Assembly: GCA_950106755.1 (NCBI GenBank)
Contig: OX467092.1
Coordinates: 8,184,001-8,248,000 of the forward strand
Direction of reading: 5' to 3'
Origin: Climacium dendroides
Taxonomy: Eukaryota > Streptophyta > Bryopsida > Hypnales > Climaciaceae
Length of the DNA: 64,000 bases
Translations under genes and position numbers: made by a program
The notes under the pieces: model-generated
Databases searched by the model: none
Told to the model about the DNA's origin: nothing
Seen by the model: the letters and a program-made list of their open reading frames with translations, nothing else
Part shown: one piece after another, positions 80 to 34,612 of the stretch
How positions within the stretch are numbered: position 1 is the stretch's first letter
Layout: each line of letters opens with the position of its first letter

Positions 80-89
80 GGCCTCTAGT
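80..89 (+). repeat. Target-site duplication, left copy (GGCCTCTAGT)
   Basis: A perfect 10-bp match, in the same orientation, to 34613-34622. The sequence just inside it starts the left terminal repeat. Confidence 0.85.
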
Positions 90-189
90 GGGAAACTTAG
101 TAGTGTGAGCGTAGAGTAGAGAGCAGAGAGTAAAGAGCGGAAAATAGAGAGCGGAGAATTCAAATTTTTGTAATCAATTTTGATATAAA

Positions 190-398
190 AAGTACCTATT
201 ACCGTGGAATTAGGACTTATTTTAACCCAAATTAGTTTAAAATGTATCCAATTCTGTGGAATTTCAAAAAATGTTTGCCAAGATTTTAAGAAAAGTACCC
301 CAATGCCGTGGATTTTCAAAAAATATTTGCCGAATTTTTTTGAAATGCACCCTAATTCCGTGGAATTCTTACATCTAAATAAAACTAGTAGCAAGTAA
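190..398. repeat. 52-bp tandem array inside the left MULE terminus
   Basis: The core CCGTGG (once CTGTGG) recurs at 202, 254, 306 and 358, an exact 52-bp period, followed by AATTTCAAAAAAT-like and TTTGCC-like blocks. The matching inverted motif CCACGG occurs at 34311 and 34416 near the right end, 105 bp apart. Such arrays could bind the transposase; that role is inferred. Confidence 0.8.
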
Positions 399-3300
399 AA
401 CCTAAAGGCATTGACTACAGAATTTCTAATGAAGGACTTTGTAGAATTGGATTTTTATAGTGTAAGGATGCAATTAGGGCTGACGTCATCAAAACAAGTT
501 TACAATCAAACAGAAATTGAAGAAAAAGTATAAGGAGACTTGCAAAGATACACGTAAATAAAACCAAATTCCAACTCATATAAAATCCAAATCAAAACAA
601 AGTATAGGAGCTCAGGTCACTAAATCCAAAAGGCCCCATCAATGGCTAAAACTACCCCTATCCTCACCATGTTTAGCCTCTAGATATATGTAATCCAAAA
701 CACGCTTATTGAAACTACGAGCGCGAGTAGGGGTAGTGATGGTGCCTCCGCAAATTGATGTGCAATCCCACCAGCATATGAAGGGAGCTCAAATGCCTTA
801 GGAGGACTTGCAAACATGTTTGCAGTGAGGACATGAATTGGATTCTCCCTTGGAACTCTGAACAGTCAAGAAAAGTAAACAAATAAGTAGAAAGAAGAAA
901 CAAAGAATCATGGAGAAGAAAAAATTGCAAACAAACAAAGAAGAACACAAACAACAAACTTACGCACAGAGCAAATCGAAGTTGCGCTTTGCCATCTTCT
1001 TAGGAGGCGGAGCAAAAACGGATCCTCGCGGTTGGGCAATTTGATGGGAAGTAGTCTCTGGGTCAGGGTCTCTCATGGGGAAGAGGAGGGCATTGAAGAT
1101 GTCCAAATCCGCCTCGAGAGCCACAATATGGCGCTGAAGTGCGTGGCATGCAATAATGGAACCACCTAAAACATTTAGAACCAGATTGTGAGAAGTTGTA
1201 ACATAAAGAAATAAAGTAGTGGAAAGAAGAAGATTAAAAATTAAAGAGGTTGAAAACAAACCTAAACCGCATTGTCAATCCATCACAATGTCATCCTTGT
1301 CCGTGAGGGCGGAAAAAAGGATGGAAAAAAACTCGTGACGTTTCTCACGAGCACCTCTCCATGGCACGCCATCCTCCCTCATAGCTTGATTCTTTTCATT
1401 CGTGAAACTGTTGAGCCAACCATCCCTCTGGACATTGTAACCCATCTTATCAAAAGTTGTATTTCGTACCTTCAAAACGGAGTTGACCCGAGTTAACACT
1501 TTGATGAAGAACTTGCAAGTCTGAAAAAATGAACATGAGTGTATTTGTATCAATGAATCCACAAAATGCAACTGAATTTGCGGTAGAGTAGAGGGAAAAA
1601 AACTTACCACTCCCGTAGGAACCACGGGTGACTGAAGGTTGAGGTCATTCATGCCAAACCATTCTTCAGCCACGTAGAAGTTCATAGTGTGTGCCCAGTT
1701 GTGGATATCCCTTGATACATTAGGATCAGCGACATGAGTGAAGACAATGATGCCATCATCATGGAGGTTGGCATTTGCAAAGGCAAACAAAACCTTGAAG
1801 TATGAAGTAGACCGCTTGTTCCCAGTTGGCACATCATTGGAGTAGGTAGAAATCTGTGGCACACATAGGTTCTTGGGCACATCTGCAAAAAGCAGATCGA
1901 TATTCATGTAGACCTTCTCTTTGGCATCGGACTGAGTACGACCTGTTCCAACCTATGTAAAGAAATTGTTGTGAGAATTTGAATAAGTAAGAAAAATTGA
2001 ATTCTAGAAATAAGAATGAATGCAATAGAAAGAAATTGGATTCAAACCTTAGTTAGGAATTCTTGAATGCAGGTGTAGGTTGAATGATGATTTCTTGTCT
2101 TCATAAGGTGCTCAATGACCTCTACCATGTCCACATTCTCAATCAGAGTGAGTGTAGAGGGTTTTTCCAAGGAAGTGGCTGAAGTATCTGGTGCAATTGC
2201 CTTCCGCTTATGCGGCTCAGAGGGAATGGTGATGTCACTTTGAGAAAGAGCGGGGTCCGGGTCGATAGGAGCAATGGAAGGGATGAAGGATGGAATAGAG
2301 GAGGGAGCGGCGGAAGGACTTCCAACAACTGTAGTGTCGGGGGCAGAGGGAGGAGGTGCCAAAGCCTTGGAAGCAGAGCGAAGGGACATACGAGGTTGAG
2401 AAGTTTGGGTAACTGAGACTGTGCCAACCAACTTGCCCTTTTTGCCCTTAAGCACATTAACTAGCTTGGTTGCCTTCTCCTTCCCTTTATCCGTCATCTC
2501 CGCTTGTAGAGGCTCCAAGTCAGAAGGATGATTAAGCATCGGAGCTATAGCAGTCAACGAAGAGTGAAGTGCCACCTCAGAGGCAGGGATGAAACCCCTA
2601 GAATAATCGATGTACCAACCACAAGCCTTGAGGTGGGGATCTAGGTACTTGGCCACTTGTGTCTCCGTATACATGAATTGGTTAGACTCCAAATTCACCC
2701 AATCCTCCAAGTAAGGTGGTAGAAATGATGATGAAATAGCTTGTTTGGGAACAAGCTCTTGGAAGATGTACCTGAAACACAAGGCAAAGGTTAGTAAGGG
2801 AAGGGTGGAAGGAGGACAAGAATAGTAGGAAGAAGGTGCGGGATGCATGCAAACCTGTAAATTATACATTGTACAATCTGGCACCCACCAAATTCATTTA
2901 GGTTGGAGGCTTTGAAGAATCTCGGATCTGCATTGTCATCAAAGAACTGCTCAAAGGCCATGTCCAACAGAAAAATCCTTCAGCAGTCAACAAATTGTGC
3001 AGGTCGTAATACACCCATGGAGACATTCTAATCAATGGGTCGAGCAAAGCTTGACTCCATGGAAGCAAATTCCTCCACTACAGCGTGCTCCAACTGCATT
3101 ACCACAAATAAAAAGTAAGAATCCCAAATAATGATACAGAACAAATTTAAGAAGGGGAGAGCAATTAGAAAATGAACCTGAGCCCAGAAGGATGCTTTGT
3201 TTAGCCACACGTCAAGAATCCTCTCCTTAAGAGGCGCTATGGAGGGAAACTTGTTACCACCACGGACTATAGGGGAGGAATTCCACCACCGGAGCCAAGC

Positions 3301-5321
3301 GGTCTTGAAGCAAGGTTGGACGTTTGCTGTGGCAATCTTATGGAGCTTCTCAATTGTTATGTCAGGGACAACGTTGGTGGAGAAGTGTCGATCAATCTAG
3401 AGACAAGATCCATGGTTAAACATATGAAAAAGAATGTTGAAGTGGAATTTGACAAACTTGAAGAAGAGAGGAAGGAGAGGGTAACCTCGTCAAAGAATGC
3501 GGGCTCATGATACGAGTTTGCTACAGCAACGTACTTCTCAAAGTTCTTGGTACAAATAGACCTTCTAGCCTTCTCTTCAGTTGAAGTCATGGCCTTTCAA
3601 ATACCCATAGCAGTCCTTTAATTCACTGGTGTTGCATCCTTGTAAGCTAGAGCGGCAGCATCAACAGCAACCGAGATTTCCCTCTAGTAGTAGAAATGTT
3701 AGCCCATGCAAATTGCGAGAGTGACAACCAACAAGAGGAACAAGTAGATTAAGGATTACCTTGTACAGGAAGGAAACAAAGAAGTCCATCGTGAGAGGAT
3801 ACCATGTGGAAACCTTTGACTTGGCGGTAGCACATGCTTGGTAATCGTCCTTGGAAATTAGTCCACAAAAGCCTCTAAGGGTAAGGCACCAAAGATGCGG
3901 ATGCGGAGGTAGTCGTGGGGAAATATGCCACGACTTCTCCGTAGGATGAAACTTGTTGACATGGTGGTACCAAGTTGTGCGTCGATGGTTGCTTTCCCAA
4001 ACGAAAAACATCTTGCCAATCATGTGAGTGAGGTCCTCATCTTGCGCCATGAGAGAGTCAAATTGTTCACTAGCAGTCTTCCAGAGTGGACTCCATCCCG
4101 AGACGATATCCTCAGTGACATCCATACACTATAAGAAAACTGCGTTTGCCTGGACATCTAGCCAAAAACGACGTACGTCCGCAAAAACACAATACGTCGC
4201 AGAAGACGTTGGGGTGTCAGGCCGAAAAAGTGAAGATTTTGCTCTGATGTCTTCGATAGCATTGCTAGATTTCAGTCATAGCATACTGATGCTACGAAAA
4301 ACAATGATGCAATGTAAGACATCCAGGTGGACATCAGATGTTTCCAAGGATGTCCACAATAACATGTTCAGCCACGTCACCATCTTTGGTCAAACTTAGC
4401 TCAGAAGTTGATTTAGAATTTTCTTGCAGTCAAAGGTAAAGTGACTGCCCAAGGTTAAAAAGAGGACAACAGGCAGGTGGTGACTCCTAAAAGCTTATGT
4501 GGCATCTGATGTGGCGTGATGAGATGGAAATTGTGTGACGTGGCATGATAACGTGGAAATTGAGTGACGTAGACATGGGTGATGACGTGGCATGCCACGT
4601 CAACATACTTGGTCTATCCATGTTCCGATCTTGAATGTCTCCGTAGATGTCACAAGTGACGTACTAACGTCTACATTGACATCACTTTTGGCGTCGACAT
4701 TTTGTACTTACTACGAATGTAACTTCAAACCACATGCTATCCACTGTGCATTTCATTACGTCTGACTGGACGTGTGAATGTTGTGGAAGCAATTGTAGAT
4801 GTCTTCTTTGATGTCAAAATGACTATAGATGCATAACATGACTTTATGCCCAAGGTTGAATTTGCACATGATGCACGTCCTTCCTATGTAGTATAAAATG
4901 ACTTATGTGTTTACTTGGTTTAGGTTCATTTTTGGACTATTGAAGTCTTACATTTTGCGCACGTTCAACAAACTTCATTAGGATAAAATTCCACCCTATT
5001 CATATGATGTCACTTGCAGCACCAAGCAAGACAGACTCTACTACAAAAATGTCAAAATGCACGTTCAAGATGCAACGGGTTTACTTGAAAGACATGAACA
5101 TGCTGATGGCTTTGTATTTCTTAGACGTCCTACGTGACGTCAAAATGTTGGCACAGCAAATACATGTCAGTGATGTGAACACCCTATGTTTCCTCCTCAA
5201 ATGCAATGTCATCGCTAACTATGGCAACATACTCTCCACCATTGTCTACTGGTTGGCACACCGGGTCCACAACTTGTTGCAGTGGTTGTAGGCCATCGAA
5301 GTCCCTATCATTCACCAATTG

Positions 5322-5565
5322 CACCATATAAGAAAACTGTGTTTTTTCTGATGTCAAGCCAAAAACGTTGTACGTCCAGGATAACATCATACGTCTGAGA
5401 AAACATTGGGATGTCACGTCGACGAACGCTGGAAAAGTAGAGATTTTGGTTTGATGTTGTAGAAAGCATTGCTAAATTTCAGTCACATCATATTGGTGCT
5501 ATGAAAAACAATGATGCAATCTAAAACATTGTTGTGGACATCAGATGCTTTTTAAAATGTCTAGA
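5322..5565 (+). repeat. Second copy of a CACTA left end inside CACTA-1
   Basis: Begins CACCATATAAGAAAACTG and stays alignable to 4127-4350 for about 220 bp, including the stretches ATTTCAGTCA and ACAATGATGCAAT. It looks like the left end of a related CACTA copy inserted or duplicated inside the element. No matching right end was found. Confidence 0.75.
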
Positions 5566-5869
5566 AAAAATTTCAAAATGTTATAAGCTATATAGATTTA
5601 ATTTATATAACAAATTTATATAAATTAGATGAATGGATTTGTTATGAAAAAAGGTTTACAAAATCATATCAATATTATATTATATAAAAATATTTATTTT
5701 TAACTTAAAATTTAAATTCTAAATTTTATTAGTTTAAAATCATAAATTTTGCATCAAATTTTAATAATTTTTATTGCTATTTCACCTTCTTAACTTATTA
5801 TTTTCAAATCATTCATATCTAATGTGGGGTGATTTTCTAATGTTCTTGGACTTTGAAATATTTGACATC

Positions 5870-6110
5870 TTAACCCTTAAAAGACCAAGGCCTTTTTTTG
5901 CCGAAAAACATTGAAAATTGCCATTTCTGTAGCAAAGAGTAAAAGAAATTTTAATTTTTTTTCACATCTAACCATAGGATCTTACACCTAACAAGTAAAA
6001 AAATTATAGAAAAAATTTCAGAATTTTTGACCGCATAGATTTAAAGTGGAAAAAACAAGTTTTTTAGCGAATTGAGGGACTAGATTTTTTGACTTTGTAA
6101 AATTTTTGCA
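5870..6110 (-). repeat. Fragment of the TTAACCC-terminated repeat family
   Basis: Starts TTAACCCTTAAAAGACC. Read on minus it contains AGATCCTATGGTTAGAT and an AGAAATGGCAATTTT-like block, shared with the ends of the copies at 36037, 50307, 53411 and 60387. The far end was not found. Confidence 0.6.
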
Positions 6111-6988
6111 CTACAGAGTTTTGAGATTTAAATATTTATAGTAGAGAATTGAGTTGAGAGTTCAGGAAAATAAATAAAAAATAAAAAAAACTTAAATTTC
6201 ATTCTTAAGAAAATTGTTCAGTAGAAGTAGGTATGAGATAGAAGGAAAATCTAAAATATTAATATATTTTAGATGGAATTAAAATGCACTAATCCCAATG
6301 GCGAGATTGTTCTAACAAGTAAACTAAACCATGTGAAATTTTTATTTTCAAAAAATTGTAAAAATTGCATTCAAAAATGCATCCAACAAGTTATTTTTTT
6401 CAAGAAGCTGCTCTAATTGCCTAAAAAACAAAAATGTCCATAACTTTCTCATAACAAATCCAAATGAAATGAATCAGAGCTTTCCAGATAGACAAAAATA
6501 TAATCTACAATTGGAATTCCATGTTGGATGTATTGTTGTGTCATACTATATTGAACTTGGTGTTGCAAACAACCTAGATTTAAGAAATGTGACTTTATCA
6601 ATTAAATATTCAAGGAGACATCCCCATATATGTTGGAAATGACATGCAAATGTTCATTATGACATCATAAACAACAAATAAGATTTGTAGAAAATTTAGA
6701 AATTGTTGAAGCAAATGTTTAAAACAACATTGATGTGAATGTCTAATTTCATACTACAGATGTTCTTTTGAATGTTTACAATGACGTCGAAAAAAACATA
6801 ATTAAGACATATAAATGTTTTTTAAGACATCATTTCAGACATCATTGTATTTATATTGCTGCTTATATTTTAGTTTTGTATATCCCATATTGTTTGTCAT
6901 GCCTCCTACACCCCACTAATATAAAAGGCTTGTCTTTTCATTAGTTAATAAGTAGATTTTTGAGCCATTCAATATACTTGATAAATAT

Positions 6989-7165
6989 AGTGTATGGCAT
7001 ATTGTATGGTGTATTTTGTATGGCATGTTGTATATATTTTATATTTTGTATGGCATGTTGTATATATTTTGTATGGTATATTTTGTATGGCATATTATAT
7101 ATATTATATTTTGTATTGCATATGATATACCATATATTGCATATTTTATATTGTGTACAACATAT
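6989..7165. repeat. AT-rich minisatellite
   Basis: Degenerate tandem units of about 30 bp built from TTTTGTATGGCATGTTGTATAT. The long reading frames across it on both strands are by-products of the repeat. Confidence 0.8.
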
Positions 7166-8061
7166 TACTACATTGACAACATTAGAACGTCCAATACAAT
7201 GCATACATGCGTTCCAGGAGATGTCCCAAAAAATAAGTGTGTTCATAATTGCATCTCTTTCTACAAAGATCAAACAAGTGGACGTTGCCGCTGACATCCT
7301 ACAATGCAAGAAGCCATCTGCTACCCCAGCATGTACTTGTGCTGGCTTGTACAAGCAGACATCTCCTATGACAGGGTATGCTTGAAGAAGCATGCATGTG
7401 CAAACTCCATACGCTCGGATGGACATTTCAATCAGCATACAATTGTTTCACTTGACATCATTTAAGACACCTGGACGTCCACAGCAATGTCTTAGAAGAC
7501 ATCTTAAAATGCTAGGCAGACCAGGCAAGTGGCCCCCAAAAATGCCACGTCAACATCCGCGGATGCCATGTCAGTCAATTCCGTCAACACCGACGTGGCA
7601 TGCCACATCAATTACATGTCAGATGCCACATCATAGACGGGAAATGGATGAAAAAAATGACACTCTGGCTTTCCCGCGCCTAGGTGGCAGCTACATGTCA
7701 ACTCCTGAAGTTACCTGTTGATCGATATTTTTTTCAACATCACGATGCTGGGTAGGCAAATCTGATGCAACGTACCATGTTTTTGGCATATCTACAGCAG
7801 CACAAAGTGATTGGACATCAATCCAGACATAGAACGCGTCACGCGCGATGTCCGAGTGTCCAAATTGCGATGTTGCGACAAACACAGTTTTCTTATAGTG
7901 ACAACCTTGTCTTTGTTGTTGTAGATTGACACGTATAGGACGTAGTCACCGTCACGGTAGCCAATGACAAACTCATTCTCCAATAGCTGGACATCAACCT
8001 CGTTAATTGGCTGTACAGGAGGCAAGGTATGCATTCGACAAAGGGGAATACAAAGGCGGGA

Positions 8062-8087
8062 CTTATTTGTGGGTCTTATTTGTGGGT
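8062..8087. repeat. 13-bp tandem duplication in the methylase-like exon
   Basis: CTTATTTGTGGGT occurs twice in a row. A 13-bp duplication would shift the frame, yet the sequence on both sides reads well in one frame, so it may be ancestral or compensated. Confidence 0.6.
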
Positions 8088-8377
8088 CAAACTCGAAGGC
8101 GGTTAATAATTGCAGTGGAGTCAACCTTCTACTGCGCTTGGAGATGATTTTCTTCTATGTCTGGGTCAGCCTTTTCTACGGGTTCAGCATAACGTGGAAG
8201 AGGAGTCAGAGACTCTTGCCCCCCAACAACAATATCGTTGGCCACTGCTACAGAAAGTGGTACAAGTGACTCTGGAACCATAACAACCTCAGACGGAATA
8301 ATTTGAAAGGATTGTGAAATATCCATCTCCACGGATTCTTGCCAAAAAGAGGCATGAATTAGAACAAACATGCAAAG

Positions 8378-8872
8378 TAATAGAGAACCCGGCGGAACCG
8401 CGAGGTTAATTTGGGGTGGCCCAGAAGGCATGAAGATGGAAATCCTAATTTACATTGAAATGGCATAAACGACTTCAAGAAAAGGCGGAATCACAACTAA
8501 GCACAGAACTGCAAAACTACAAACTAAACAAAACTACAAAGCTACAAAATAAGCAATACTACAAAACTACAAAACTGCAAAATAAGTGAAACTGCAAAAT
8601 TACAAAATAAGCACAGAACTACTCAAAACGAACAAAACGAAGCAAGATAATGCAGCTCAAGAGAACCCCGGAGAATCGTGGGGTTCCTCAAAGAATGTTT
8701 AGTAGCATAGCGACTTGCAGCGAGTTTCTAATCCAAATATTGCTTCACCTTACAAACTTCACGACCAACACTAAAAATGGGTGAACAATGATGAAAGCGG
8801 ACAATTTCAAGCACGGCCAACAGTGTACACAATTGAATTGGAAGAACCCCGCGGTTCCGCGAGGTTCCCCCG
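8378..8872. repeat. GC-rich palindromes and ACTACAAAA simple repeat in an intron/gap
   Basis: Three variants of a GAACC-CCGCGG-TTCC-GCG-AGGTTC hairpin occur near 8386, 8662 and 8845. Between them (8500-8625) is a degenerate run of ACTACAAAA units. The stretch separates exons of the methylase-like gene and I see no coding sequence in 8660-9160. Confidence 0.5.
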
Positions 8873-10687: not shown

Positions 10688-10785
10688 CAAACTAGCTTTC
10701 CTCTCTTTCTATCTATTTCTTTTATTATAGTCCTTGATTGCATTGCCCTTTGGAGTCTACGCTTAGCTTTTCCTTCTTTTTGTCA
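10688..10785. promoter_or_regulatory. 98-bp divergent promoter region
   Basis: The methylase-like gene starts at ATG 10687 on minus and the MULE transposase at ATG 10786 on plus, leaving 98 bp between start codons. The gap is pyrimidine-rich on plus. No convincing TATA box is visible. A shared promoter is an inference from layout; untranslated exons could lie elsewhere. Confidence 0.4.
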
Positions 10786-13440
10786 ATGGCTTCATCCTCC
10801 ACTGTCCCTACAATGGCTGAAATGGCTGAGCTTCGTGCGCATGACTTTGGGGTCTCTATTCTTGTTCCTTTAGGTAAAGATGGATTTGCATTTGTCTCCG
10901 ACCTTCACCTTAGGATTAGATTCTCTTTGCAAGTGAGTACTATTTAGATTGAACGCGAGATTTTTGATCCTACTGTATCTTTGCTTTTCGAAACCATGTG
11001 TGAAAATTCTAGGCTTGTTGAGGATGGTTTGGGAGTTGGGTGCTGGCAAGTACAAAGTCTATAGGCTCACCAATTCTCAAATAGGGGTATCAACTGAAAT
11101 CCTTACCCCACTCCGATCGTCTACTTGCATGTTGAACACCCCTTTGGTAGTGAGAGTTAAAAGTGAGCCTGGTGTGCATTCAATCATTGATTTGTCAGAT
11201 TCTTCTAATGAAGATGTACTCACTCGCAACACTCACTTTACTCTTCTTGTTAATCCTACTCATTTGTTTGAGACTCCCACATTTGTCACCTAGTTTCCCT
11301 CTTGTCCTAAACCTTCAAATCTTTAAGCACCCTCTTCATCCAAACCTTCCTTCAGTATTGTTCAATGTTTACGTAGACTAGGTTCTATGCCTGGTAGTAA
11401 AAACATTCTCAAGAAATTAGATTATGATAGATTGAAAATTGAGGAAGTCAATCACCTCCCCCCACATTTTGATGGTATCCAAATGTTTGTCTTTCCTCCG
11501 GTTAGAGCCTTGTCTTCTCATACCAAAGCCAAATCTATGGAGGGCATGGACAAGCGATATGATGGCCATGTTTGGATCAAGACTCAGACCACCAACATTA
11601 GCAACAACCTTGGTCTTGCGTTTTGCTCATCAATTTGCGTTGGCCACCTTCAATGCCAGAATCAAAACTGCAATTATCTTCAACGTGCTCACCGAACCTC
11701 CATGGTGAATGATACCAACTTCCATGACTTTACCAAGGATCTCTTCTCTATTAATGGGCCCCCGCCAACCACCTCTACTCTTGTATGTAGCATTTGCAGT
11801 GAGCCCCCTAGGTGCCTTGAACTTTGCAACGCTAAGATCTTCTATGTCCACAGCAAGGAGTCTTCTCAACGAGGTTGCATTCATATTGGCAACCATCAGC
11901 ACCCTGTCATGGCTGGTGATTGCAAAGATAGCCGCAAGCGCATTGATGCGCTCATTGAAAAGCATGTCGAGAGGATACCCCAAGCCACACATAGCAAAAT
12001 TGTCCTTGCGGCCAGCAAAGACCTTGTAGGTGAGTTTCTCCTTCTCGATGATAATGATGCACATCAACTTCTTTCATTAGAAGAATTGGAGCCTGCATTG
12101 ATTGTTGCAAGGAATTGACCTCTTCTCACCTTCGCAACAAGGTTACAACCTTCAAATACTTGCGTAGATTAGGAGTCATGGATGGCATTGCTAAGCTTAG
12201 GGGAGTTAGCACTTGGGCCTACATTCAATGAAATCAGTTCCCAGGCCAAGGTGATGAAGCGGACAAAGTCTTCGTCTTCAAGATGTCTGAGGTTGGCCCC
12301 GATAGTGGAGTTGATTTGGTTCGGCGCATGTAACTAGGTGGGGATCTTAAACATACGTGGATCATGTTTGACCATGTTAAGCGCGTCTCCAAATGGACCA
12401 CCATGGCCTACCACGTTTACGATGGGATGTACCAATGCATCATGACCATTGCTTGCTGTGACTTCTAATCTGAAGACAAAGATGCCCAAGTGGTCTTCTG
12501 GCATAACCTCAACCATGTCATGGCTCGGCACGGAATCCCAAAGCCATATTTCAAAGGATTCATGGCGGATAGTGCAAGCCAATTGGAATGCCGTACGCAT
12601 TGTCTACGGCTCCGGAGATCCCAAGGTTCCAATCAAAGGGCGCGAGAGGACGTACTACTTCCATTGGACCCAGTCTTTGGAAAAGCACACCAAGCTATAT
12701 ATCAAGCATGACTTGCAAGACCAACACAAGCATCTCTGTCTCCAATATCGCGATGCCTCGTCTATACTAGAGGCAGAGACAAGGTACCTTGCTATCAAAG
12801 CATGGTGGGCATCATCAGAGTGCACCTCTGAGGATGGACTGAGGCATCTTCAACTCTGGCTAGCCTTCTGGCACTTCTGCTATCGACAATGGGGTGGCTT
12901 CGTAGAACTGGTATGTTTGTTGACTTATCACTAGATGTTTTCTTCTTCACTTCTTTTCTAACCTTCTCAATTTCTTATTCAATCTTTCTTTTGTGCAAGA
13001 GAAAATCATGACGGCCAAGGAGTTTGCATAGATGCCTAATTGCAACCTTGCCGAATCCATTCACAACAAATGGCTTCAAGCATCTGGCAACAAGGGTGGC
13101 GATCTCTATGTGGTGACTGTGAACGACTATATTCGAGCGTTCCTCCAAGTTGTGGCATACCATCAATTTCTAAAAGGTGGCATTGGCAAAGATGGCCCTA
13201 GCAAAGAAAAACTCAAACTTAGATGCGCTCAACGTCGGGCTCAATGAACTGCCGATCCAACTATGCTACAGAAAGTTCTCCTTGACATGCCTGGTGGAGA
13301 TGAATTTTGCACGCGCAATCCACATCTTGAGGGTAGTGAGGTCTTTGGATCACAAAAGCGCAAACCCGACACTCCTATTGGAGCCGATGAAGATTCTCAC
13401 CGCCCCGACACTGTCAATTTCTCTCGCCCGCATGTTAGTA

Positions 13441-13705
13441 CATCACAAAGTTTAGACCCTACAGTTTATCAACAATTATCGTGTGGTTACCATTGTTTCA
13501 TGGGTTCACACATTAATTACAATTTATTGCATCATTACAATGCATTACTTCGCATCGTTACAATGCATTACTTGCAATTGCATCATAAGGATGCGAAATA
13601 ATGCATCATAATGATGCGATAAATTGTAATTAATGCCCAAATCCTTGAAACAACAATAAACACACGATAATAGTTGACAAACCGTAGGGTCTAAACTTTG
13701 TGATG
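13441..13705. mobile_element. 265-bp foldback MITE with TA flanks
   Basis: The left arm begins CATCACAAAGTTTAGACCC and the right arm is its inverse ending at 13705. The arms are about 110 bp with scattered mismatches and pair around a short centre of GCATCAT/ATGCATTA repeats. TA dinucleotides (13439-13440 and 13706-13707) flank it, as in Tc1/mariner-derived Stowaway-type MITEs. It interrupts the transposase reading frame, which resumes downstream. Confidence 0.85.
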
Positions 13706-22800: not shown

Positions 22801-23898
22801 AGGAAAAGATGTGGACAGCTTCATGTGGTAGTGTAGGATTGTATTTCATACCCCTTTGCAGGGCAAGGCAGAGGTCTTCGAAGAAATTTGGAACTCCACA
22901 GGTGAAGCTCCCGTTACGTGAAGGCTGTTTTAGAATTGCGCCTTCATGTACAACTGTCTCTGGTCGATTAGGCCTTCCAAGATTAGAAATGATCCACACT
23001 AGTTTGAAATGAAAGAATAACACAACTACATAAGCATTGAAGCACTACTAGAATATTTTGTTTTTCTGTTGTTTTGGTCGCGTTGATCCGGTCAAAATCT
23101 GACAGAAATTTGTTGATTTCAACAAATTTCTGTCAGATTTTGACCGGATCAACGTGACCAAAACAACAGAAAAATTAAATTTTCTAGTAGTGAAGGCAGG
23201 CTTTCTAGTTCAGAAAGTTATCCTCGACTACAGAGATTGGAAGGACCGAAATATTATACAGTTGAGTGAAATTCGTGTGGGACAACGTGAAACTCCGCAG
23301 TCACCTCAGAATCCATTGGATTTGCAATCGGAGGGGCTAAGTACTAATGGGGAGGATTCATGTTTTCAGCCGCAGATGTGTCTGTCGCAGTACATGTTGT
23401 CGAATTAGGTACCTGCATGCTCCATGTCCATGCATACCACACTTTCCTGTATTTGCAGGTACTACGGCACTAGTTTTGGTCTCCAATTCTGACCTGCGGG
23501 TTGCAGGGGATATCATTTCTGTTTTGCAATGATAAAGGACAATTCGAATGACGGTGGAAGTAGCCACAATATAGTGTCTTCTTGTAAAGCTCAAACATGG
23601 AGATTGGTTGGAATAGCGAACTCCTACTTGGAACGGGAAGCTGATGTCTTTCTTAGGTTCTCCGGTGACTTCACTACAATTTGCAATTTTGGATTGCTAT
23701 TGGGAACATACCAAGCTGCTCTAGTCCTTCCGAAGGTTCAATTTCACGTTGTCTTCATAGTTTTTTACAAAGAGAATGTACTATACTTCGATGACGATGT
23801 ACTCTTTTTGTAATAATGCATTCATTGACTTGCATGTTCAGCGGAACTCTTGCCCACGAGGTTTGCATTGACTAACCAGACTACACTCTCATGTGCAG
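19834..23898. other. Region between the divergent CACTA-2 genes
   Basis: No recognisable gene. A short, very basic reading frame at 21938-22129 ends at a plausible GTGAGG donor and could be a first exon of the plus-strand gene. Reading frames at 22752-23012 and 23529-23813 have no recognisable motif. The hairpin MITE at 23043-23193 lies here. Confidence 0.4.
23043..23193. mobile_element. 151-bp CACTA-type hairpin MITE
   Basis: Nearly the whole element is two inverted arms. It starts CACTACTAGAA and ends with the inverse, and meets at a centre of TTGATTTCAACAA. AAG flanks both sides (23040-23042 and 23194-23196), a 3-bp duplication as expected for CACTA. It is nested in CACTA-2. Confidence 0.93.
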
Positions 23899-26800
23899 CT
23901 TCAAGAGATTTTTAGGTCTTGGCCAAGAAGAGTAGGGAATAGCAGAATGAAGAACAAGCCAGCCGCATCGAAATTGAAGAAACCACAGTTGTCAGATCCG
24001 GAAGTGGAGGCTGACGAAGAGATGGAAGATGCGCTCTCTCCAAGCGCACATTTTCATGAGGAAAATCGTACGTCCTGTGAGTAACGGCCTGGTATTTTAG
24101 AAGACGAGGGTAGAGAGCTACCAAGATCAATTCGACCTCCAATTCGTGAAGGGGCACCGAGGCCAATGGAAGGTGGATACTGTCTTCCTCAGCCGGATAG
24201 TCGCCGTTGTTCAGAGTGGGTGGATGATTACCATTACCCATACGGACAATCATCCGATGGAATGTACTCCACTTCATTCAGATAGCCGTGGCCTCCTGCT
24301 CCACATGGCGGCCCAAGTAATTACGATGGACGTGGTCTGCCGTATGGCAGTGGAAGTAGGCAATATGATGGAGCACCCGAATTCCACGGCCCAAGAGGTA
24401 TTGCGTTCTTCCCATAGATGTTGTGCCTGTAGGATGTTCAGCAGCTTCATTGCGTCCATTGATCTGAGAAGCAGACGTTGTGGAGGTAATGCATTGTCGC
24501 TGAAACTTCCTTGTCTACTTCACCGTTTTTGTTCTGACGGTAGTTCTGGGTGGTCCATTCCTATCAAATATGGCTGCCGTGAATTGAGGGCAAATAGAAC
24601 TTGTTTATGCTCCTATGTGCCTACTATACTTCGCGACTGAGCTCTATACAATCCTGTTCATAATGTGTTTTTTCCATAGAAAACACAACTCCCCTACAAA
24701 TTGAAGAGAAGTGAGCAGAGGGACCCTCTGTAGAAGAATCCCTTTTGTTTGAATATGTGTGACAAAATGTAACTTGTTTCATTTCCTCCAATTCCGTAGG
24801 ACGACGCTTTGCGTACAGTGTCGCAGGTAACGTGTGAAATTCTGAACTTTTTGGTCAATCTGTAGCTTCCGGCGATTCCTCATTCAATTATTCTGAATTT
24901 CGTTTTCCACAACAGCAACAGTATTACAGTAATATAGTGTAGCTTCAAATGTAACAATGCGTAGTCCTTTGTCAACCATCCATCAATCAACAGGAGCTCA
25001 TTCTGTTGGCTGTGCAGAATTTTTCTATGACAGCCACAGAGGGGATTTCCAGAGACCGAGTCGAGAATATGAAGACCGACGTCAATATGATGAAGGTCGA
25101 TATGAACGACGGCCAGAGTTGCACTTACTCGATTTAGAGGGCACTACAGGGAAGCCACATCCCTACAGCAGCATATAAGGCAGCAACCCCCCTCCATCGT
25201 CCTCAGCCATTGTCGTGAATGAAGGTCGCGATGAAGGTAAGAGCAGTGTGTATGGAGAGGAACGTAAGAGGACTACACGTCGACCACTGTTCTTGAATAA
25301 GGAAGGATTTCCCAAAGGGAAAATGGCAGGCCTTCTCCATTCAGATATAGTATCTTTTGTGAAGGATATGAATCCAGCTGAGGGGTGGGAGAAAACAAAC
25401 GAACGATGCCAAGCAGAGATTGATAGACCGCGTTCATGTTGAGTATGAATTTTATGGCGATTCAAATATGTTGAGTGACAAGTATTTGCGGAAAACTGTG
25501 GGACAAGGCCTAACCAGCTTCAGGTACTACTTGAATCAACTAATTGACAAAGCAGCGAAGAAACCAGCAGACTTGAAGGAATCGTACTGGAAGGCATTGA
25601 AAGCGAAAAGAGAGAGTAAAGAGACCCAACAGAAATCTGAGTACATGGCGTCCATTGCGAGAGGGAGAGGGTCAAAGAACACTACGAAGAAAGTAATGCA
25701 AGAAGCTGTGCTTGTGCAGTTGGTGAGGACAAGCAATGCTCTTCTTTTTTCCATTTCTTCAGCATTTCCTTCTTAGTTTTCGATGTCTCTTATGCCGTAT
25801 ATGTCACGCAGGCAAAGGAAAAGCAACGAGAGCCCTACATTGAAGAAATTGAAGCCGCAGTGGAGAAAGAGTGGGTAGTGGTACAACAAGAAGCTATGGA
25901 AAAAAGGAGACAAAGAACATCAACGAAAGCAAACAACGCAGCAATGCAGTTGACAAAGGAGTTGACGAAGCGAGTAGCTGTATTGGAGGCGTTTATGACT
26001 GAGTGCGAGCCCGTTTTGAAATCTTGGAAGCGCATGAAATTCGAAGTGCAGGAGGAGGACCTGCCGAACAAGAGCCCAGCACACGTTGTCGATGTTGATG
26101 AGGAACCACTCCTACTCACTAAGGAGGCGCACGAGTCAGCAGAAGTTGTTGAAGAGGAAGTGGTGGTTGAGGTGGAAGGAACCCACGAAGATAGTGAGGA
26201 CGCAGACGGCAGCGACGAATGCAAGTCATCAGGTAACGAAGAGAGTAGTTCGGAGGAGGAGGACAACTCTGATGACAAGAAAATAGTTCCAGAGCCCGTA
26301 GCAACTACCGTAGTGGAGCCGGACGTGGAATTGGTTGCAGCTCCAGCAGCTGTTGTAGTCGCTGACCCACATGTGGCATGCAAGTCTGTTATACAGGAAG
26401 TGAAGTCGGTTGGACATCGTCAGTGTGAATTGCAGAAAGGGGTTACCCGACAAAGTGGACAACTCATAGGAAAAGCGAAGCAGGTACGCTTCCTATGTAA
26501 AGTGCTCAGAAGTAGTGATGCATTAGTTTGATGTAGAATACTGAAGAATGGGTCCACATTGATGAAGTTCATGCTGATGCATACTCTGGAAGTGTACAAT
26601 CTCTTGATTTTGTGGACTTAGGTTGTTGTACAGGGAAGGACCTCTGCTTGCTCTGCAGAGAAGCTTACGTAAGCTACAAAGGATATTGAAGTAAGCATAA
26701 CCAACCATGTCGTACTCTGTGCAACTAGAATATGTACTTTCAGGATATGCGTCTTCTTTGGATTTTCTGTATCTTAGAATGCATTGGTTGTGTATGAAAG

Positions 26801-27058
26801 AAAACACGCTTTGTTGCAGAGGGCGGTAGTTTTGGAGAAGAAAGATCCACCTGCCAGAGCTCCGAAGAGGCAGAAGATTGACGATGAAGGAGATGACGAC
26901 GTTGTATTATTGGACAACGACAAGACATTTGACAAAGGAAAGAATGCAAAAGGCAAAGGGAAGACCGGTAGAAGCAATCGGAAGACTATGAAACAAGCTG
27001 AGGTCAAAGGCCAAGGCAAAGGAGGAAAGGTATGTAGCCCACAATGTCTACCGTAATG
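23899..27058 (+). pseudogene. Ptta/TNPA-like second gene of CACTA-2, decayed
   Basis: Exons by splice borders: 23899-24397, about 24943-25722, 25812-26483 and 26778-27029. The first exon is basic/acidic then rich in P, G, Y and S (GGPSNYDGRGLPYGSG). The second has a basic stretch, then KYLRKTVGQGLTSFRYYLNQ and ESYWKALKAKRESKETQQ with KSEYMASIARGRGS, the W...S...R pattern of the Ptta/En/Spm transposase family (PF03004). The third has a coiled-coil-like start then a long Glu/Asp/Ser-rich tract. The fourth has an NLS-like APKRQK and a Lys/Gly-rich tail. Stops at 24079, 24284 and 25176 and a frameshift near 25430 break it. Its job in related elements is to bind subterminal repeats. It faces away from the TNP2 gene. 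Confidence 0.75.
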
Positions 27059-27672
27059 TGGACATGTGTGGAAGTGAGCACTTGCGATTCCCATGATCTG
27101 GTGAATGACAATCTTGAGATTGAAGTCCATGGTAATTCTCTTCCATTCTGTTTCATGTCTGCTTGCAAGACTGTCGATTAGGTTGTTGGGGAAAATTCTT
27201 GAAAACCCGTTTCTCCAAATTCCACATTAATGTTTTCATTGCGGAAATGCATAAATAAGTAGGACATAGGGATAGGACGTATGACTTTGTTCATGTTTTG
27301 AGTAGTCTTTCATGTATGAGTTTCTATGTTCTTCAAAATTACTGTAGCATAAGGTTCAACGATTAGGAACACCAAACAATACGCAGTGGATGTCCAGCAC
27401 ATCCTCTGACAATATGTTTGGTATGTTACAGAAAGCTAAGTGAGCTTGAAGCGTAATGGGGCGTTGGAAAGTGCCCAATGTAAGTTGTCACGCTCTTAGT
27501 GGGCCTTACCAAATGGAAGTCATTGTTGGTTCACGAGTTTCGAGAATTTGAAGTTCAATTCTGTATTCACAGGAGAGACGGGAATTTCTAGGCTCGATAA
27601 CCTTGAGAGGTTTCGGTGCCACATGCATCTGAAGAGAAATTAGGAACTGAAATAATTGATTGATGATGGCAA

Positions 27673-27960
27673 GTGATGACCGATGTGGTTGGGGAAGTTA
27701 TGTTGTTGGAAAATTTGGAACCAAGAAAATTATTGGGGACAAGTAATGTAGTTCACTCCGACTTTGACAAAGATGTAGTCCCTATGCCAGGTCGGTTACA
27801 GCAGAATTTGATACGCCTTTCTTTAAAGACAGTACATGCTTTGGATGCACCCCTTCCTTTTGTAGAATTTGACAGCAACGGAAAAGTGTTGTGCAGCACA
27901 TTGGGGCAAGCTTTCAGGAGGCGCTGCGATATATGGTGGCCGGCTCCACCTGGATTGTAG
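27673..27960 (+). other. Exon-like open frame, unrecognised
   Basis: About 95 codons including HALDAPLPFVEFDSNGK, with codon-like composition and no family I recognise. It lies between the Ptta-like gene and the ETO1-like fragment in CACTA-2 and could be a further captured exon or an extension of either. The surrounding 27060-29300 shows nothing else I can name. Confidence 0.3.
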
Positions 27961-29309
27961 AGATGCTAAGAGGCAGGCTTCATGGACAGGGAGGGCCAAT
28001 TTTTCGTAGTTCTATTTAAAAGTATTTCAACGAATTCTAATGGATTACAGACTTCAAACTGTTCTGTATGTATGTCGTCAAGGACTCTGGTGCATGCAAT
28101 GTTTTCTTGGCTGTACAAAAGTTGTGTACAAATGAGGTCCATTGAGTACATCATTTGCAATGGAGCAGAGCATGAAGGACTACAAATGTGGAAAGTATGT
28201 TAACAGGCCGCTTTGTTGTTCATTTAGGCCTACATATTGTTTGCTAAGAAATTCATGTCTGTATCACTGATTCAAGGCAGGACTAGCTCATCTTCAGCGG
28301 TAGAGGCATCCTATTCAAAAGCTAGTGTTGTAAATGATAGAGAACATGACTAATGATTAAAATTGTTTTGTGCCAGGTTCTGCAATACTAATCAGGTTAG
28401 AATGTTATGACGCAGTGGTATTTTCATGAATTCAGAGATTAGTTAGTAATCAAACGGGAAGGTTGGTTGGTCTTTGTTATGTTCGTGTGTGTTGATGAAT
28501 TAAGCGTATGAAGGTAGGAAAATCCCCTACTCTGCGGACATTCACTCAGCCTCTGTGGATGTTATGTAGAATGTTGGAATGTTGACGGTATACGATGCTG
28601 TAGACAAGGCAAGACTATCATGCTTTGTGTGTAGGTGATAGCAATTTTTTGTTTTCTCAACAAACCAACGTCGAGAAGGGAGACAGATTGACATGTGAAG
28701 ACTGTTTACCTTCCCTCAAATTCAATGTTGTACTCTTTGTACTTAGGCAGCTATAGATCTCGATTGGTGTGCCCAGACACGCATAACTGAAAGTCACCAT
28801 GTTTACAAATGATTAGGTAATTTGAATGAGGTTGTGTTGTCAGGAATGGGCCACAGAAGACATGCCTGTCATTTTATTCCTCTTATGTTTGTTGCTTTGA
28901 ATAGAATGTATTTGAGGTTGTTCAGAAGTTCTGCTGTGAACCTTCAATTTCTTTGGGGGGGTGCCAATTATACTTGATTAGTACATTGGTCACACCATCT
29001 TTTGCCCCTTCGTCTCTTGCTCGACCAATCTCTGAATACATCAGGTCAAACTCTGAGCTTCAGTATGATACGCAGTGGTGACAATGATTGAATTTGTGTT
29101 AATGCAGTATCTCATTGTCGAAATAGAGTGACCGTCCTATTGAACCTTACTTGAAGCTTGTACATTAGATTTGTACTGTAGCTGAGATGTACGTGCAGTA
29201 GGAGACAATAGCCGAAGAGGGCGAGGCCACATTTATTTGGGAACAATCTTCTGTGTTCTGAGGTCTTGTTGAGACCGAACTTTTCCAACGAAGCGGTCAT
29301 TGAGGTCGA

Positions 29310-31330
29310 GAGCACGCATTTTTGGTACACGAGGAGCTTCGGAAACGACATAGTCTTCAATTTGAATGGACAACAAGTCCAGTGGAATGGGCAGAGAATA
29401 TAGCGGACTTGTCAGTGGCCTTGTGTACCATGTTCAATGGTCATTTTGCAGGAGCTCTAATATCTCGGAATAGGTTATCCGGAAATGGCATGTCATTGAC
29501 AGGTATGAGGGTTGTAGACCACTTCAGTAAAATAGGCCGACTAACAGAACTTTCAACGAAGATGCTTTTGGAAATAGTATCTTCCGCACACTTGTTTAGC
29601 TGCGGGACAATGAAGGATGCTTTTCACCCAAAATGTAGCTACCTTGGTCCAAAGTAGGCATGACGTACTAACATTTCTGGAATATGTGTTACAGAAAGGT
29701 ACAGGAGCTTCAGCACGAGTTTGCTTGTAGGTGTACTTCCTCGAGCTTACCAACTCTCAGAAAATTCAACCTCCGATAATTTGTAAGTATTCATTCTACT
29801 TCCGAAGTGCAGGAACGACTTACAAGTGATGGTCTTCTTTTCTTTGCCTTGTACACCTTCTTAAGCTGAATTAGTGTTGAAGAGAGCATGTGTTGTAATC
29901 ATAATGTTGCTTTATTGTAGGGGCAGAGACGTTGTAGGTATGTGAAAGGCCGAAATCTTTGCCATTCCACCAACGAGTTTTCGTTTTGTTTGCTAGGAAA
30001 GAATATAATTGAGCTCTGGGATAATTCGAGGCTATTGTGGAGCAAGGACATGTTCACTCATGGAGTGCAGTAGTAAGAATTATAGCTCTGAAGGGTCTAT
30101 AGGCAGCTACATATGAATAAATTGCAGTTGTTGTTGCCAATTACAAATCCAAAGGGTGGATGATTCAGGGAACACCATTATATAGTGAGGAAAATGAAAA
30201 GATAGCAGGTCTAATCAAAGCTTCTGAGGTGGACGCAACCCTAACATATCCGTACAATTATTGTGTTGCCACTCCTCTGGATGAACTGAACGTGGAAGCT
30301 GTAATTATAGAGATGAAGAGGATCTTGGGATTCCACGGGACCTTTGAGTACTTTGAAGTGAGAGCTTCTTTCTGTGTAGGTCTTGAAGAATACGAAGGGG
30401 CAGTGCGGGATGTTCGGTCATTATTAGCACTGGACCCGTCGTACATGATGTATGTTGCCCGTCTGCGTACGACTGCATTCCGGAAATTGTGGAGTCAACA
30501 TGTGGAGCAGTGGTCGAAGGCCAATTGCTAAATGCACTTGTACTGCAGGTGGTCTTCGATGGATGATACTGGCTCTACAGGTGTGTTTCATAAAATGTTG
30601 GAATAGTATTCCACAATGGGCTTCTTTTGTTTCCGGTAGCCCCTTCTTTTCTTGCAGTATGTTTTAGCGTACTTTTCCCTTGGACTAAGTTCCGTTGCCT
30701 ACATCTTTTTTTAGATACAGGTATCGTTTTCTTGAATTTTCCTTCATTACAATGTGATGACCGTTCTTCTGCCATTTTGTTGCAAGAATTGCAGGGACCG
30801 TAACATCGTCATGCCTCAATACACTGTAGGAGTGCTTTATATTACAGTTATGCTTCTCATATATTGTCATGATTCCTCGTTAGGAAGGGGCACAGAAGCA
30901 ACTGCATTTTTTCCTTTTTTTGGCAAAAGACGTGGTCCTTCTCCATGTCGGATGCCAATGGAGTGTTCACCTCTGAATTGGTTTCTACAGCTTCTTTGTT
31001 AATGACTTCACAATTTGATTGAATTGATTGTGGACTGCTGTTTAGGTAGAATTGCCCTGAAGCACATATGCACAATCTCGGACTGGCATGGCATAATGCA
31101 GGTACTGACCACGAACGCCTCATTTGTGAAGGTTGGATCTTCTATGATGCAGGTAATTGTGAAGATGCTTTACAAGAGGCACAAGAATCTCTGGGTCATC
31201 AGTGATCATTTCAGGCTTTTCTCTTGCAAGCGTATGCTTTAGCAACTGATGAAGGGTCCATTGATGACCAGGAGAAAACAAGAATGGAAAAATGGATGGA
31301 TTACTGAATGCAAAAGTGCATCTAAATGGA
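29310..31330 (+). pseudogene. Captured ETO1-like BTB-TPR gene fragment
   Basis: Conceptual translation in shifting frames follows ETO1/EOL proteins, which are substrate adaptors targeting ACC synthases to CUL3 E3 ligases in ethylene control. At 29335-29640 is the BTB domain: NDIVFNLNGQQVQWNGQRI, then after a frameshift MFNGHF, LSGNGMSLTGMRVVDHFSK and LSTKMLLEIVSSAHLFSC. At 29640-29760 comes SRHDVLTFLEYVLQKG. At 30140-30640 is the TPR region: GWMIQGTPLYSEENEK, KASEVDATLTYPYNY, LEEYEGAVRDVRSLLALDP, QHVEQWSKANC, then RWSSMDD. At 31045-31300: HERLICEGWIFYDAGNC and SFQAFLLQAYALA. Stops and shifts occur throughout (30529, 30605, around 31212). Host genes carried inside CACTA elements are well known. 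It is on the same strand as the Ptta-like gene; chimeric transcripts are possible. Confidence 0.85.
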
Positions 31331-33199
31331 TTCTTTAATTGCAGCTGGAGGTGCAGTATTGTAGTTTTGCATTTCCTTGTCATGCTCTTGTCATGTTCCA
31401 ATTCGGGTGTAGGAGGTGCATAGTATAGGATCCTAGTTCAAAAGATAGAGCCCCTTGTGCTTCAAAAGATAGAATGACAAAATGAAGCAGTGCTTGCAAT
31501 GGCATGCACTGCATGCTGAATATGTAGGGTTACAGGAAATATTTAGGATAGCAGGAAATCATTTAGGGTTCCAAGACATTTCTAGGGTTACAAGCGTTGG
31601 GAATCATGTTCCCACTAACAGGGAAGTGCCAAGCACTCTGTTCAAGCGAACATACTTTTATGAAATGAAACAGTTCTTTATATTAATTTCTGTTAACATT
31701 CTCTCATGTATGTCAATGTTTTCTTGTTTGTGAACAAGATTAAACAGGAGGCAATCGAAGTTGTCGTGTTCATCAGAACACATTTGCATTAAATCATATT
31801 GTTCGAAATTATAGGTGCTGTTGAGCGTGACGTTGGAGAACATGAAATTTTTAGCTACAAATAATTATAACGTCTTCTGAATGCGAAATTATGTTTTTTG
31901 AAATAGGAAATTGTATTTCCGGGAACATGGTAGCGTTCGTAAGAGCATAACTACATCGTTTGAAACACAGTCGTTAATGTTGACCGACGCGTTAGGAAAG
32001 AATCCCATCTTGACATGTGGCAAGCGGGATCATAGGAGTCCACGTGGACAAGCATACTGCGCAACAGATGTCTGCCATCTAGTGCAAATTGTTCCACGTA
32101 GGCTACCTTATTATATCCAACCTCTTCGAAACACTAAAAGAAATTACACGTAGACAATGACAGCGTGGACAAACTGCGTTTCTCTAAACAATGTAAACAT
32201 TCACATGAACGCAAAAATAGGGACACAACGCTGGAATTCGGGCTCGTTCGGAACGCATTTCTCAACAGAATCCATATGATACTTCCCTGTTCGCCAAAAT
32301 CGTTTACAGAAACGTGTTTTTCGCGTTTGGAACCTGTTTTTTCCAGCACATTTTTCTTCTAGTGCTTGTAATTCTGGGAAGTCTTGTTGGGCTATGTACA
32401 CTATCACCAAGAAGAAATGCATTGCCAAAATTGTCTCCAATGGCAAGAGCACCCCTACCCCAACCTACTCTAGATTTTGGAACCAATACTCATTCACAAG
32501 ACCAAGATCCAAGAAGTTCTTCTTCTGCCCAGACGACATTGATCGTTGTGTCAAGGTCTCGCTTTGTAAGTGGGTGGATAATTTCTCTGTGGACCAAGAG
32601 AGACCTCCTATTCCTCCCATGTGGCCTGTGAAGTTGGGCACTAACCTCACTCGCCCGGAGATCTTGAAGCTTGAGAATGCCGGCTTTCAATTGCCACAAA
32701 AAGAACGGATCACTCCAACAACTTTGCTCCTCCCCTCGACCTCTCCGGTGTGGATGTTCCACACAATCTTGACTTTTACCCTATTTCAAGGCAGTCTAAG
32801 TCTACGCGACGCTCCACCTACGTACCATCAGCAAAACAAATGCAAATGATTGTGTCCGCTTGTGCTATGCAGGGAACCATCTTGAAAATAACAATGATTC
32901 CTCATCCCAGATTTGGATGTATTATCAATCTGCAGTCCAAACCTGCTCCAACACAATCAATTTACCAACTCACAGTGAGCTCCCTCCCTGATTGCACTTG
33001 CCCAGCCTTTAAAGACATGATTACCAAGTTCGGCTGCAAGAGACATTCGTTTCTACATTGTAAGCATTTGTACTTCCTCTTTGTCAAGGTCTCTAAGTTA
33101 GATCCAGAAGTGAACTTGTTCATTCACGCCCCAACTTTTAGCTTCAATGAGGTTAAATTCATTCTTGAAGGGGGCCTCTTGACACATTCTAACACCTAG

Positions 33200-34290
33200 A
33201 CTTGTTGCCGGCCTAGGATTACTTTGTCTTTTTATGGATGTGGTCATTTTTTGACCTCACATGTACTTGCTATCTACTCCTTTGGGAAATAAAATGTCAT
33301 GTTCTATGATTTTTATTCACCTCAAATCATTGAATTACAATAATTGTTACCATGTGTTTTTACACCATCTCACTCTGCATACTAACCCGTAAGCCTTTTA
33401 TTTCTTTTTCTCCACTTGATTTCCATTGTGCCAACCTCCTAGATGATTGTGACTTCCACTCATCACCCGATCTTGCTAAAATTGGATCTGGTCAAAATAA
33501 ACCAACATAGCTAATTGTCATTATTTCCTTAAACAGTAGGCAATGTGGCAATAATCTTTTCATCCTCTCATAAAACAACAAAGTCAGGACTTGAAGATTC
33601 CCCTATAACCTTGACCTTCTCTTTCATGTTGACTAAGGTGTCCTCACCATCCACCTCATTTGTCTTCCATTGAATGCCACATTCAAATCAACTACATCAT
33701 TCTAATCTCTATCTACACAAATTGTTCAATCTTCTTCCACTACATTTGCCAGCATCTTGAACTTCTCCACATATCATTGTCACTCCTCCTCCACCTCCAT
33801 ACTTGCGTGGACTGCAAGAATGGAGTCATCTTGTTGTCATCATAATACCATTTTGCAACACTCCTCTCACATTCTGACGATGGATTGAAAGGAACATAAG
33901 GATCTCCTAGACTTACTATGTCCCTGTCCCATCCTATGCCCTCAAATATGTCTCTCTCTCCTCTCCCATCCTAGGCATATTTTTCTACCTTCATATTATA
34001 GGACTATAAAAGTTGTGCTTATATATTGAACTCAAGGCAACTTTGTCAACTACAAAGAATAATCGATGTCATCAGAAATGTAGAGGATCAAATGGCCATA
34101 GCTATGATAATGACAAAAGTGATGGAATAAAAATGAAGCAAGTATATTGCCCAAGTTCCTACTTCCACTTGAGTCAATCTCAAAAATGCCAATCTCTTTG
34201 ATTCTTCCTTAATCCTAAAACAAATAAGTTCAATTTTGTGTTTCCCAAGTCTCTAATTAAATTACAAGTTTGCAAATTAGGACCTTCGTT
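33200..34290. other. 3' noncoding part of the MULE
   Basis: Follows the transposase stop and leads to the right terminal repeat. I see no gene. The reading frames at 33660-33845 and 34013-34201 are short and lack motifs. Confidence 0.5.
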
Positions 34291-34304
34291 GTTTTTTGGG
34301 CCCT

Positions 34305-34612
34305 CAAATTCCACGGTGATAGGTCACAGAAATTATCATTTTGCGTTACCTCGGTTTTAAATAAAATCAAAAGTTTGAAAATTTAGACGCCAATTGATTT
34401 TTTTGCCTTCTAAGTCCACGGTAATAAGTCATACAAATTCTCTATTTTCAAAAGAATCTTGAATATTCTTTAGAATATTCAAATATGTCAATAATAAAAT
34501 CTAAAAATGATAAAAAAAAAAAAACTATTTTTTTTCTAGACTCTCTTTGCTCTCCAAATGTATGCTCTCTGCTCTCTGTTCTTTGCTCACTGCTCACATA
34601 GCAGTGTCGTTC
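34305..34612. repeat. Right MULE terminus
   Basis: Contains CCACGG at 34311 and 34416 in inverted orientation to the left array, a perfect palindrome TTGAATATTC-TTTA-GAATATTCAA-like block near 34450, then a CTCTCTGCTCTCTG tract and GCTCACA matching the left end. The target copy 34613-34622 follows. Confidence 0.75.

Follow-up and report, generated by a model that had tools for sequence, protein, structure and literature searches.

The closest described relative of the system reported here is Sola1-1 of Ectocarpus, in which a protein with ParB-like and methyltransferase parts is encoded opposite the transposase; sections of the same paper mention similar ParB-like plus methyltransferase proteins for green and red algal transposons, and name Pack-MULEs (PMC12477816). 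The Mutator-like elements (MULEs) VANDAL, with VANC, and MuDR, with mudrB, likewise carry a second gene, and VANC induces hypomethylation (PMC6446971); no methyltransferase-like second gene was found described for them, the word start "methyl" occurring 0 times in the main text of that paper. PMC5890265 reports cytosine DNA methyltransferases (DNMTs) in retrotransposons of Symbiodinium and Klebsormidium and Dam-like adenine enzymes in DIRS elements, and also mentions marine-virus DNA transposons with a DNMT gene. Here we describe an element at positions 90–34612 of a 64,000-nucleotide stretch of the moss Climacium dendroides (contig OX467092.1, positions 8,184,001 to 8,248,000 of the forward strand; hereafter the window), which carries a MULE-like transposase gene and, head-to-head with it, a methylase-like gene (gene 2).

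As in the sections of PMC12477816 that describe Sola1-1, the accessory protein is encoded on the strand opposite the transposase and is proposed to have ParB-like and N4mC/N6mA-type domains, with 1104 amino acids there and 1096 here, gene 2 being likened to the algal proteins by description and not by sequence. The opposite orientation was found in the window element and its sister copies (family A), in a second element (element B) and at 41 of the 59 loci listed below. Sola1-1 belongs to the Sola superfamily, whereas the present element has MULE-like ends, 10-bp target-site duplications, a transposase with a SWIM-like C-terminus, an altered motif IV (D[VI]PE) and dozens of loci within a single genome. 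The transposons treated in PMC5890265 also carry a gene for a DNA-modifying enzyme, DNA transposons among them, but they are of other types and their cytosine enzymes belong to an unrelated methyltransferase fold family. A preliminary description of the window knew of no MULE family with such a gene, and none was found in the openly accessible literature searched; as a claim about such second genes in general it would be too wide, since the kind as such is already known from Sola1-1. New here are a carrier of MULE-like type, the many loci and families over which the pair is spread, the finding that the two genes moved jointly, and the altered motif.

The transposase and the methylase-like gene lie on one mobile element and moved together. 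In the host assembly (412.6 Mb, 123 contigs; the window is C41:8184001-8248000) the left end of the element was present at nine loci, the window counted, with identities to the window of 92–95% in the seven other full-length matches and 89–90% in a split match on C40; 20 kb were fetched at each of the eight loci besides the window. Four copies could be followed from end to end, namely the window copy, c1 (12,761 bp), c34a and c34b (12,680 bp), on contigs C1, C34 and C41. Three of these four are bounded by exact 10-bp duplications, all different (GGCCTCTAGT, TGGATTTGGG and CTTTAGTACT), while c34a has no exact 10-bp duplication at its ends. The view of the window element as a single unit bounded by a 10-bp repeat and inverted ends was borne out by these end-to-end copies with their different duplications. 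Both genes are in the same copy in the window, c1, c34a, c34b and c35. In c3 the transposase starts beside gene 2 and then continues past nested elements, and in c2 it lies past nested elements; in both it is on the correct strand and 88% identical, its membership of the same copy being judged from position. Counting c2 and c3 by position, both genes are kept in seven of the nine family A copies. The preliminary description had asked for further copies with both genes, the same ends and target duplications, and would have been contradicted by methylase-like copies never tied to these termini; the former were found and the latter was not the case. The features of the window copy are the following.

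80..89, no strand: left target-site duplication GGCCTCTAGT, read in the window
34613..34622, no strand: right target-site duplication GGCCTCTAGT, read in the window
90..34612: composite element, about 12.0 kb once its three nested inserts are subtracted, from sister-copy alignment
90..149, plus strand: left terminus, degenerate terminal inverted repeat, recurring at nine genome loci
34553..34612, minus strand: right terminus, degenerate terminal inverted repeat, also in c1, c34a and c34b
202..364, plus strand: subterminal CCGTGGA motifs at 202, 306 and 358, with inverted counterparts at 34310 and 34415
966..8326, minus strand: gene 2, multi-exon, interrupted by CACTA-1 and broken in the window copy
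3856..8326, minus strand: N-terminal coding part of gene 2 (8326–7876 and 4128–3856, around CACTA-1), ParB-like by motif only
1608..1952, minus strand: gene 2 exon with motif IV, which reads DVPK at 1872–1883 in the window copy
1263..1520, minus strand: gene 2 exon that holds motif I (DIVMD-stop-QCGL) and PWRGAREK, with an in-frame TGA at 1275–1277
966..1163, minus strand: gene 2 exon after motif I (GSIIACHALQRHIVALEAD)
11228..12910, plus strand: first large coding block of the transposase
13008..33196, plus strand: second coding block of the transposase (13008–13880 and 32365–33196), divided by the hairpin insert and CACTA-2
4127..7900: CACTA-like element 1 (CACTA-1) within gene 2, with an empty site in six sister copies
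13879..32364: CACTA element 2 (CACTA-2) within the transposase, with an empty site in four sister copies
about 13441..13704: hairpin insert, similar to a miniature inverted-repeat transposable element, missing from four sister copies

Element B shows independently that the two genes moved as a unit. It is a 15.2-kb insert inside c2 (5065–20227 of the fetched stretch, C2:40657246-40672408), flanked on both sides by the 10-bp duplication CAAGTGACTC, and its site is unoccupied in c1 and, with one difference, in c34b. Its transposase is 48–62% identical to that of family A over three pieces, and head-to-head with it lies a gene 2 whose ParB-like part is 41%, middle part 27% and methylase-like part 27% identical to family A, the last being 41% identical to that of F3, one of three distant gene 2 families (F1, F2 and F3) in each of which, as for element B, one locus was read. 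The ends of element B are alike, to a degree that none of 3000 random pairs reached, and both of its genes contain breaks.

The linkage of the methylase-like gene to a transposase extends over the genome. A protein search with gene 2 gave 151 matches (the best 76 of 2489 candidates were scored), and the listed matches were collapsed by hand into 59 loci; family A accounts for nine of these 59, and the gene of element B is not among them. A related transposase lies no more than 20 kb away at 45 or more of these 59 listed loci, as against 1.25% of random positions on the same contigs, a control that used estimated lengths for C38 and C39. The 45 is a lower bound because two of the 14 unpaired loci, the window and c2, have transposases established in other ways. 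At 41 of the 59 the transposase lies upstream on the opposite strand, and gene 2 is present in at least five families, with identities of roughly 27–48%. The corresponding search with the transposase gave 200 matches (the best 117 of 1716 candidates were scored), from which 117 loci were taken. Two side observations concern these lists. A same-strand arrangement with the transposase about 5.6 kb downstream (C34:13715566, C35:15633202, C34:29321421 and C41:23341848) is perhaps another gene order in one subfamily, and seven transposase matches within 0.61 Mb (C38:16100331-16705657), all with frames of 533 residues and near-equal scores, are perhaps a segmental array.

The transposase is MULE-like, and a candidate MULE transposase, by its duplication length, ends, two conserved Asp residues (D279 and D345 of P0111) and SWIM-like C-terminus. 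MULE duplications measure 8–11 bp, and those found here are of 10 bp in three of the four complete family A copies and in element B; the terminal inverted repeats are degenerate, and some MULE families are without such repeats. A CxC..CxH arrangement at the C-terminus, near 32990–33070, was taken by us as a SWIM-like motif. The transposase has 308 database relatives, and none of the 120 listed has a Pfam domain.

As judged from profiles and motifs, gene 2 has a weak but consistent relationship to the N4/N6 amino-methyltransferases. PF01555 (N6_N4_Mtase) was the top Pfam family for each of F1, F2 and F3, the three E values being 1.2e-4, 1.6e-4 and 0.043 in order of size, and in the PHROG database five families, all methyltransferases, were matched at E values up to 0.1 by nine alignment members. 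Similarity to the bacterial beta-class enzymes CcrM (0.01) and DpnA (0.07) and to a phage adenine methyltransferase (0.09) was weak. The 249-residue C-terminal domain had 109 homologues in the protein database at E values up to 10, the worst at 2.6e-12; a stitched window protein (residues 70–998) had no homologue at an E value of 0.001 among 7286 candidates. The C-terminal part presents, in order, (L)LFADVPEN, LHDxx, W(F/W)G(M/I)N, PWRGxREK and (G/D)D(I/V)xxD(W/C)xxxxG, the first and last of which we take to be motifs IV and I, an order known from the beta class. In families A and F1 motif I is followed by a stretch like the amino-methyltransferase helix at that place. Element B deviates from this series in places. 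The N-terminal part, with GNHR in c1 and c34b and DGNHR in element B, suggests a ParB-like domain at the motif level only.

The catalytic motif of beta-class amino-methyltransferases is (D/N/S)PP(Y/F/W), from which gene 2 departs in the five families read: motif IV is DVPE in A, B and F3 and DIPE in F1 and F2. Within the nine family A loci it reads DVPE in four, is one step off in four others (DVPK in the window) and is unreadable with the search pattern in c37. The pattern was fitted by 47 of the 109 environmental homologues. D[VI]PE stands in 28 of these 47, PPY, PPF or PPW in none, and two of the fits seem spurious; the test is a lenient one, as the pattern demands Ala before Asp and the set was picked by similarity. 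Family A also differs from CcrM and DpnA in its motif I, DWQCGxG. The earlier proposal of an N6/N4 methylase-like end to the protein was right in the relationship.

Taken together, these data probably reflect a MULE-like family of the autonomous type, which encodes, besides its transposase, an accessory protein some 1,100 residues long, with a ParB-like N-terminus (at the motif level) and an amino-methyltransferase-derived C-terminus, that would act on the DNA of its own element. The two genes inserted jointly with 10-bp duplications, recur in distant families and have both been under purifying selection. The accessory protein would bind its own element through the ParB-like part, the subterminal CCGTGGA motifs being candidate binding sites, and would act there in cis through the methyltransferase-like fold. 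This domain could serve as a DNA- or cofactor-binding module or have a changed chemistry, for instance in anti-silencing or in helping transposition in cis. Given the conservation of D[VI]PE at motif IV, an alteration that argues against ordinary catalysis, we regard such a role as somewhat more likely than that of a canonical DNA methylase. A more specific version, which we put forward only tentatively, is that several old families of plant-like MULE-type transposons have retained a repurposed methyltransferase, fixed as D[VI]PE and no longer methylating in the usual manner, which recognises the element ends and either shields the element from silencing or steers its transposition, and that the unrelated Sola and MULE-like superfamilies acquired it independently as a general accessory module.

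A serious rival, to which we give a real though minor chance, is that the accessory protein is an active N6-adenine/N4-cytosine DNA methyltransferase in which D[VI]PE works, and which marks the element's own DNA and thereby protects it or counters silencing. Motif IV precedes motif I, an order that we take to be that of the beta class; motif I of F2 and F3 is closer to the usual form, and both the purifying selection and the weak matches to CcrM, DpnA and the phage adenine methyltransferase would suit an enzyme. However, D[VI]PE is the form in all five families read and in 28 of the 47 pattern-fitting homologues, with PPY, PPF or PPW in none of them, and loss of the aromatic residue is presumably unexpected for such chemistry.

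Several results weigh against the picture of a MULE-like family with a repurposed methyltransferase. Regarding the pairing, the transposase was not seen in the 20 kb fetched at c37 and c40, it lies downstream on the same strand at four of the 59 listed loci, and 72 of the 117 listed transposase loci have no listed gene 2 match within 20 kb; as the gene 2 list is incomplete, this last figure says nothing either way about families that lack the gene. Likewise, gene 2 was not seen in the 5.6 kb upstream of a distant transposase nested in c3, so that some transposase families may do without it. Regarding class, the preliminary assignment to a MULE transposase with a SWIM finger agrees with the 10-bp duplications, degenerate ends and motifs, but when 41 sequences (the window frame and 40 relatives) were scanned with Pfam, neither MULE nor SWIM nor any other transposase family came up, and the same held for the spliced model. 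Regarding gene 2, the best PF01555 score (22.5) is below the curated cut-off of 26.7 and the evidence of this type is weak for family A (window model, E value 0.15); the spliced family A model from c1 and element B gave no Pfam methyltransferase match, a solved-structure profile search did not find a methyltransferase, and the N-terminal part had no ParB match in Pfam. The AlphaFold model of the window methylase frame, which includes two stretches taken for translated introns, was poor (predicted local distance difference test score, pLDDT, 61.4; predicted template modelling score 0.42), its best part being a beta-alpha-beta-alpha-beta run at residues 18–99, with pLDDT of 82–92 for the blocks in 51–100.

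Both genes were under purifying selection, as the better preserved copies reveal. Stops were counted within the tested blocks, with query peptides from c1 and c34b. In gene 2 the window copy has 6 stops per 879 alignable codons, one of them within motif I, and c34b has 0 in 887 codons (seven exon blocks); in the transposase the window copy has 7 per 1044 alignable codons and c34b 0 in 1044 (two blocks), with an early frame break visible in its 5' part. Between c1 and c34b, the two best-preserved copies, the ratio of non-synonymous to synonymous rates (dN/dS) was 0.32 over gene 2 as a whole, 0.28 over the methylase part of that gene and 0.33 over the transposase; values for c2 and c3 against other copies were discarded because stretches there matched other, distant nested transposases. 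Pooled over all pairs, decayed copies included, gene 2 had a corresponding ratio of proportions (pN/pS) of 0.55, and its methylase part one of 0.52.

It is very unlikely that gene 2 is a roleless passenger, a fragment of a host or bacterial gene captured once in the manner of a Pack-MULE. Capture of gene fragments is frequent in MULEs and CACTA elements, but gene 2 is present in at least five families and head-to-head at 41 of the 59 listed loci, with a dN/dS of about 0.3 and 0 stops in the seven c34b blocks; recurrence and selection led us to reject this explanation, which is largely refuted.

The spliced gene 2 model from c1 encodes the 1,096 amino acids given above. Two divergent genes parting from a 98-bp gap had been proposed for the window, and two head-to-head genes are indeed present, though broken. 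The gap itself (10688–10785, read by hand) is not conserved: c1 and c34b have GTG in place of the ATG on which it depends, and the stretches from there to the conserved gene have pooled pN/pS values of 0.91 and 0.87 (by a simpler count) versus 0.55 in the conserved exons. Because of these two findings the gap lacks support, and an extra 5' coding part at 8.5–10.7 kb with a 98-bp divergent promoter was rejected, coding there not being conserved. Gene 2 more probably starts near 8326.

Positions 90–34612 of the window are an old, broken element of about 12 kb carrying three younger inserts, since the sister copies are uninterrupted at the positions of CACTA-1, CACTA-2 and the hairpin. Without these the window copy measures 11,994 bp, and relative to its sisters it misses about 0.2 kb near 3910 and 0.5 kb near 9038. 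Its termini match as ungapped inverted repeats at 35 of 60 positions, a value that none of 3000 randomly paired window stretches equalled; those of c1 match at 37 of 60, a count without random control. The CCGTGGA motifs at both ends face inward, being reverse-complemented at the right end. The 10-bp repeat taken alone is little proof and does not exceed the chance level, because seven ten-mers, GGCCTCTAGT among them, are common to window positions 1–600 and 33901–35200. That a methylase-like gene stands between unrelated ends through chance or misassembly, as one ten-mer out of seven would allow within the window, has a negligible probability and was rejected on the four end-to-end copies on C1, C34 and C41, three with exact and different duplications, and on element B with its empty site.

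As for the nested inserts, CACTA-1 is flanked by unlike triplets (ATA and ACA) and CACTA-2 by CTT on both sides. The latter contains tnp2 (PF02992, E value 1.3e-30) and DUF4218 (4.8e-31) by Pfam, together with a weak transposase-associated domain (0.0037) under the Pfam cut-off. Also inside CACTA-2 are an open frame at 30121–30528 without a Pfam match, which we liken to a piece of an ETO1-like plant gene and which was perhaps captured, and a hairpin at 23043–23192 that has CACTA-like ends and 74-bp arms of 95% complementarity. A CACTA-1-like element, 90.5% identical to window 4125–7903, lies in the transposase of c34a (C34, about 13047762–13051496), at a site other than that of CACTA-1 in the window copy. 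Beyond the element, open frames on the minus strand at about 45144–47630 resemble what we take to be exons of a trehalase gene, so that a probable host gene lies no more than about 10 kb from the element.

It is still an open question whether transposons come equipped to mark DNA or to counter silencing. Since one genome holds this two-gene module tens of times over, in several families, and offers both copies in good condition and a site that is cleanly empty, the question becomes directly testable in Climacium dendroides. Moreover, a conserved but changed catalytic motif in a methyltransferase-like domain would be of interest to enzymologists.

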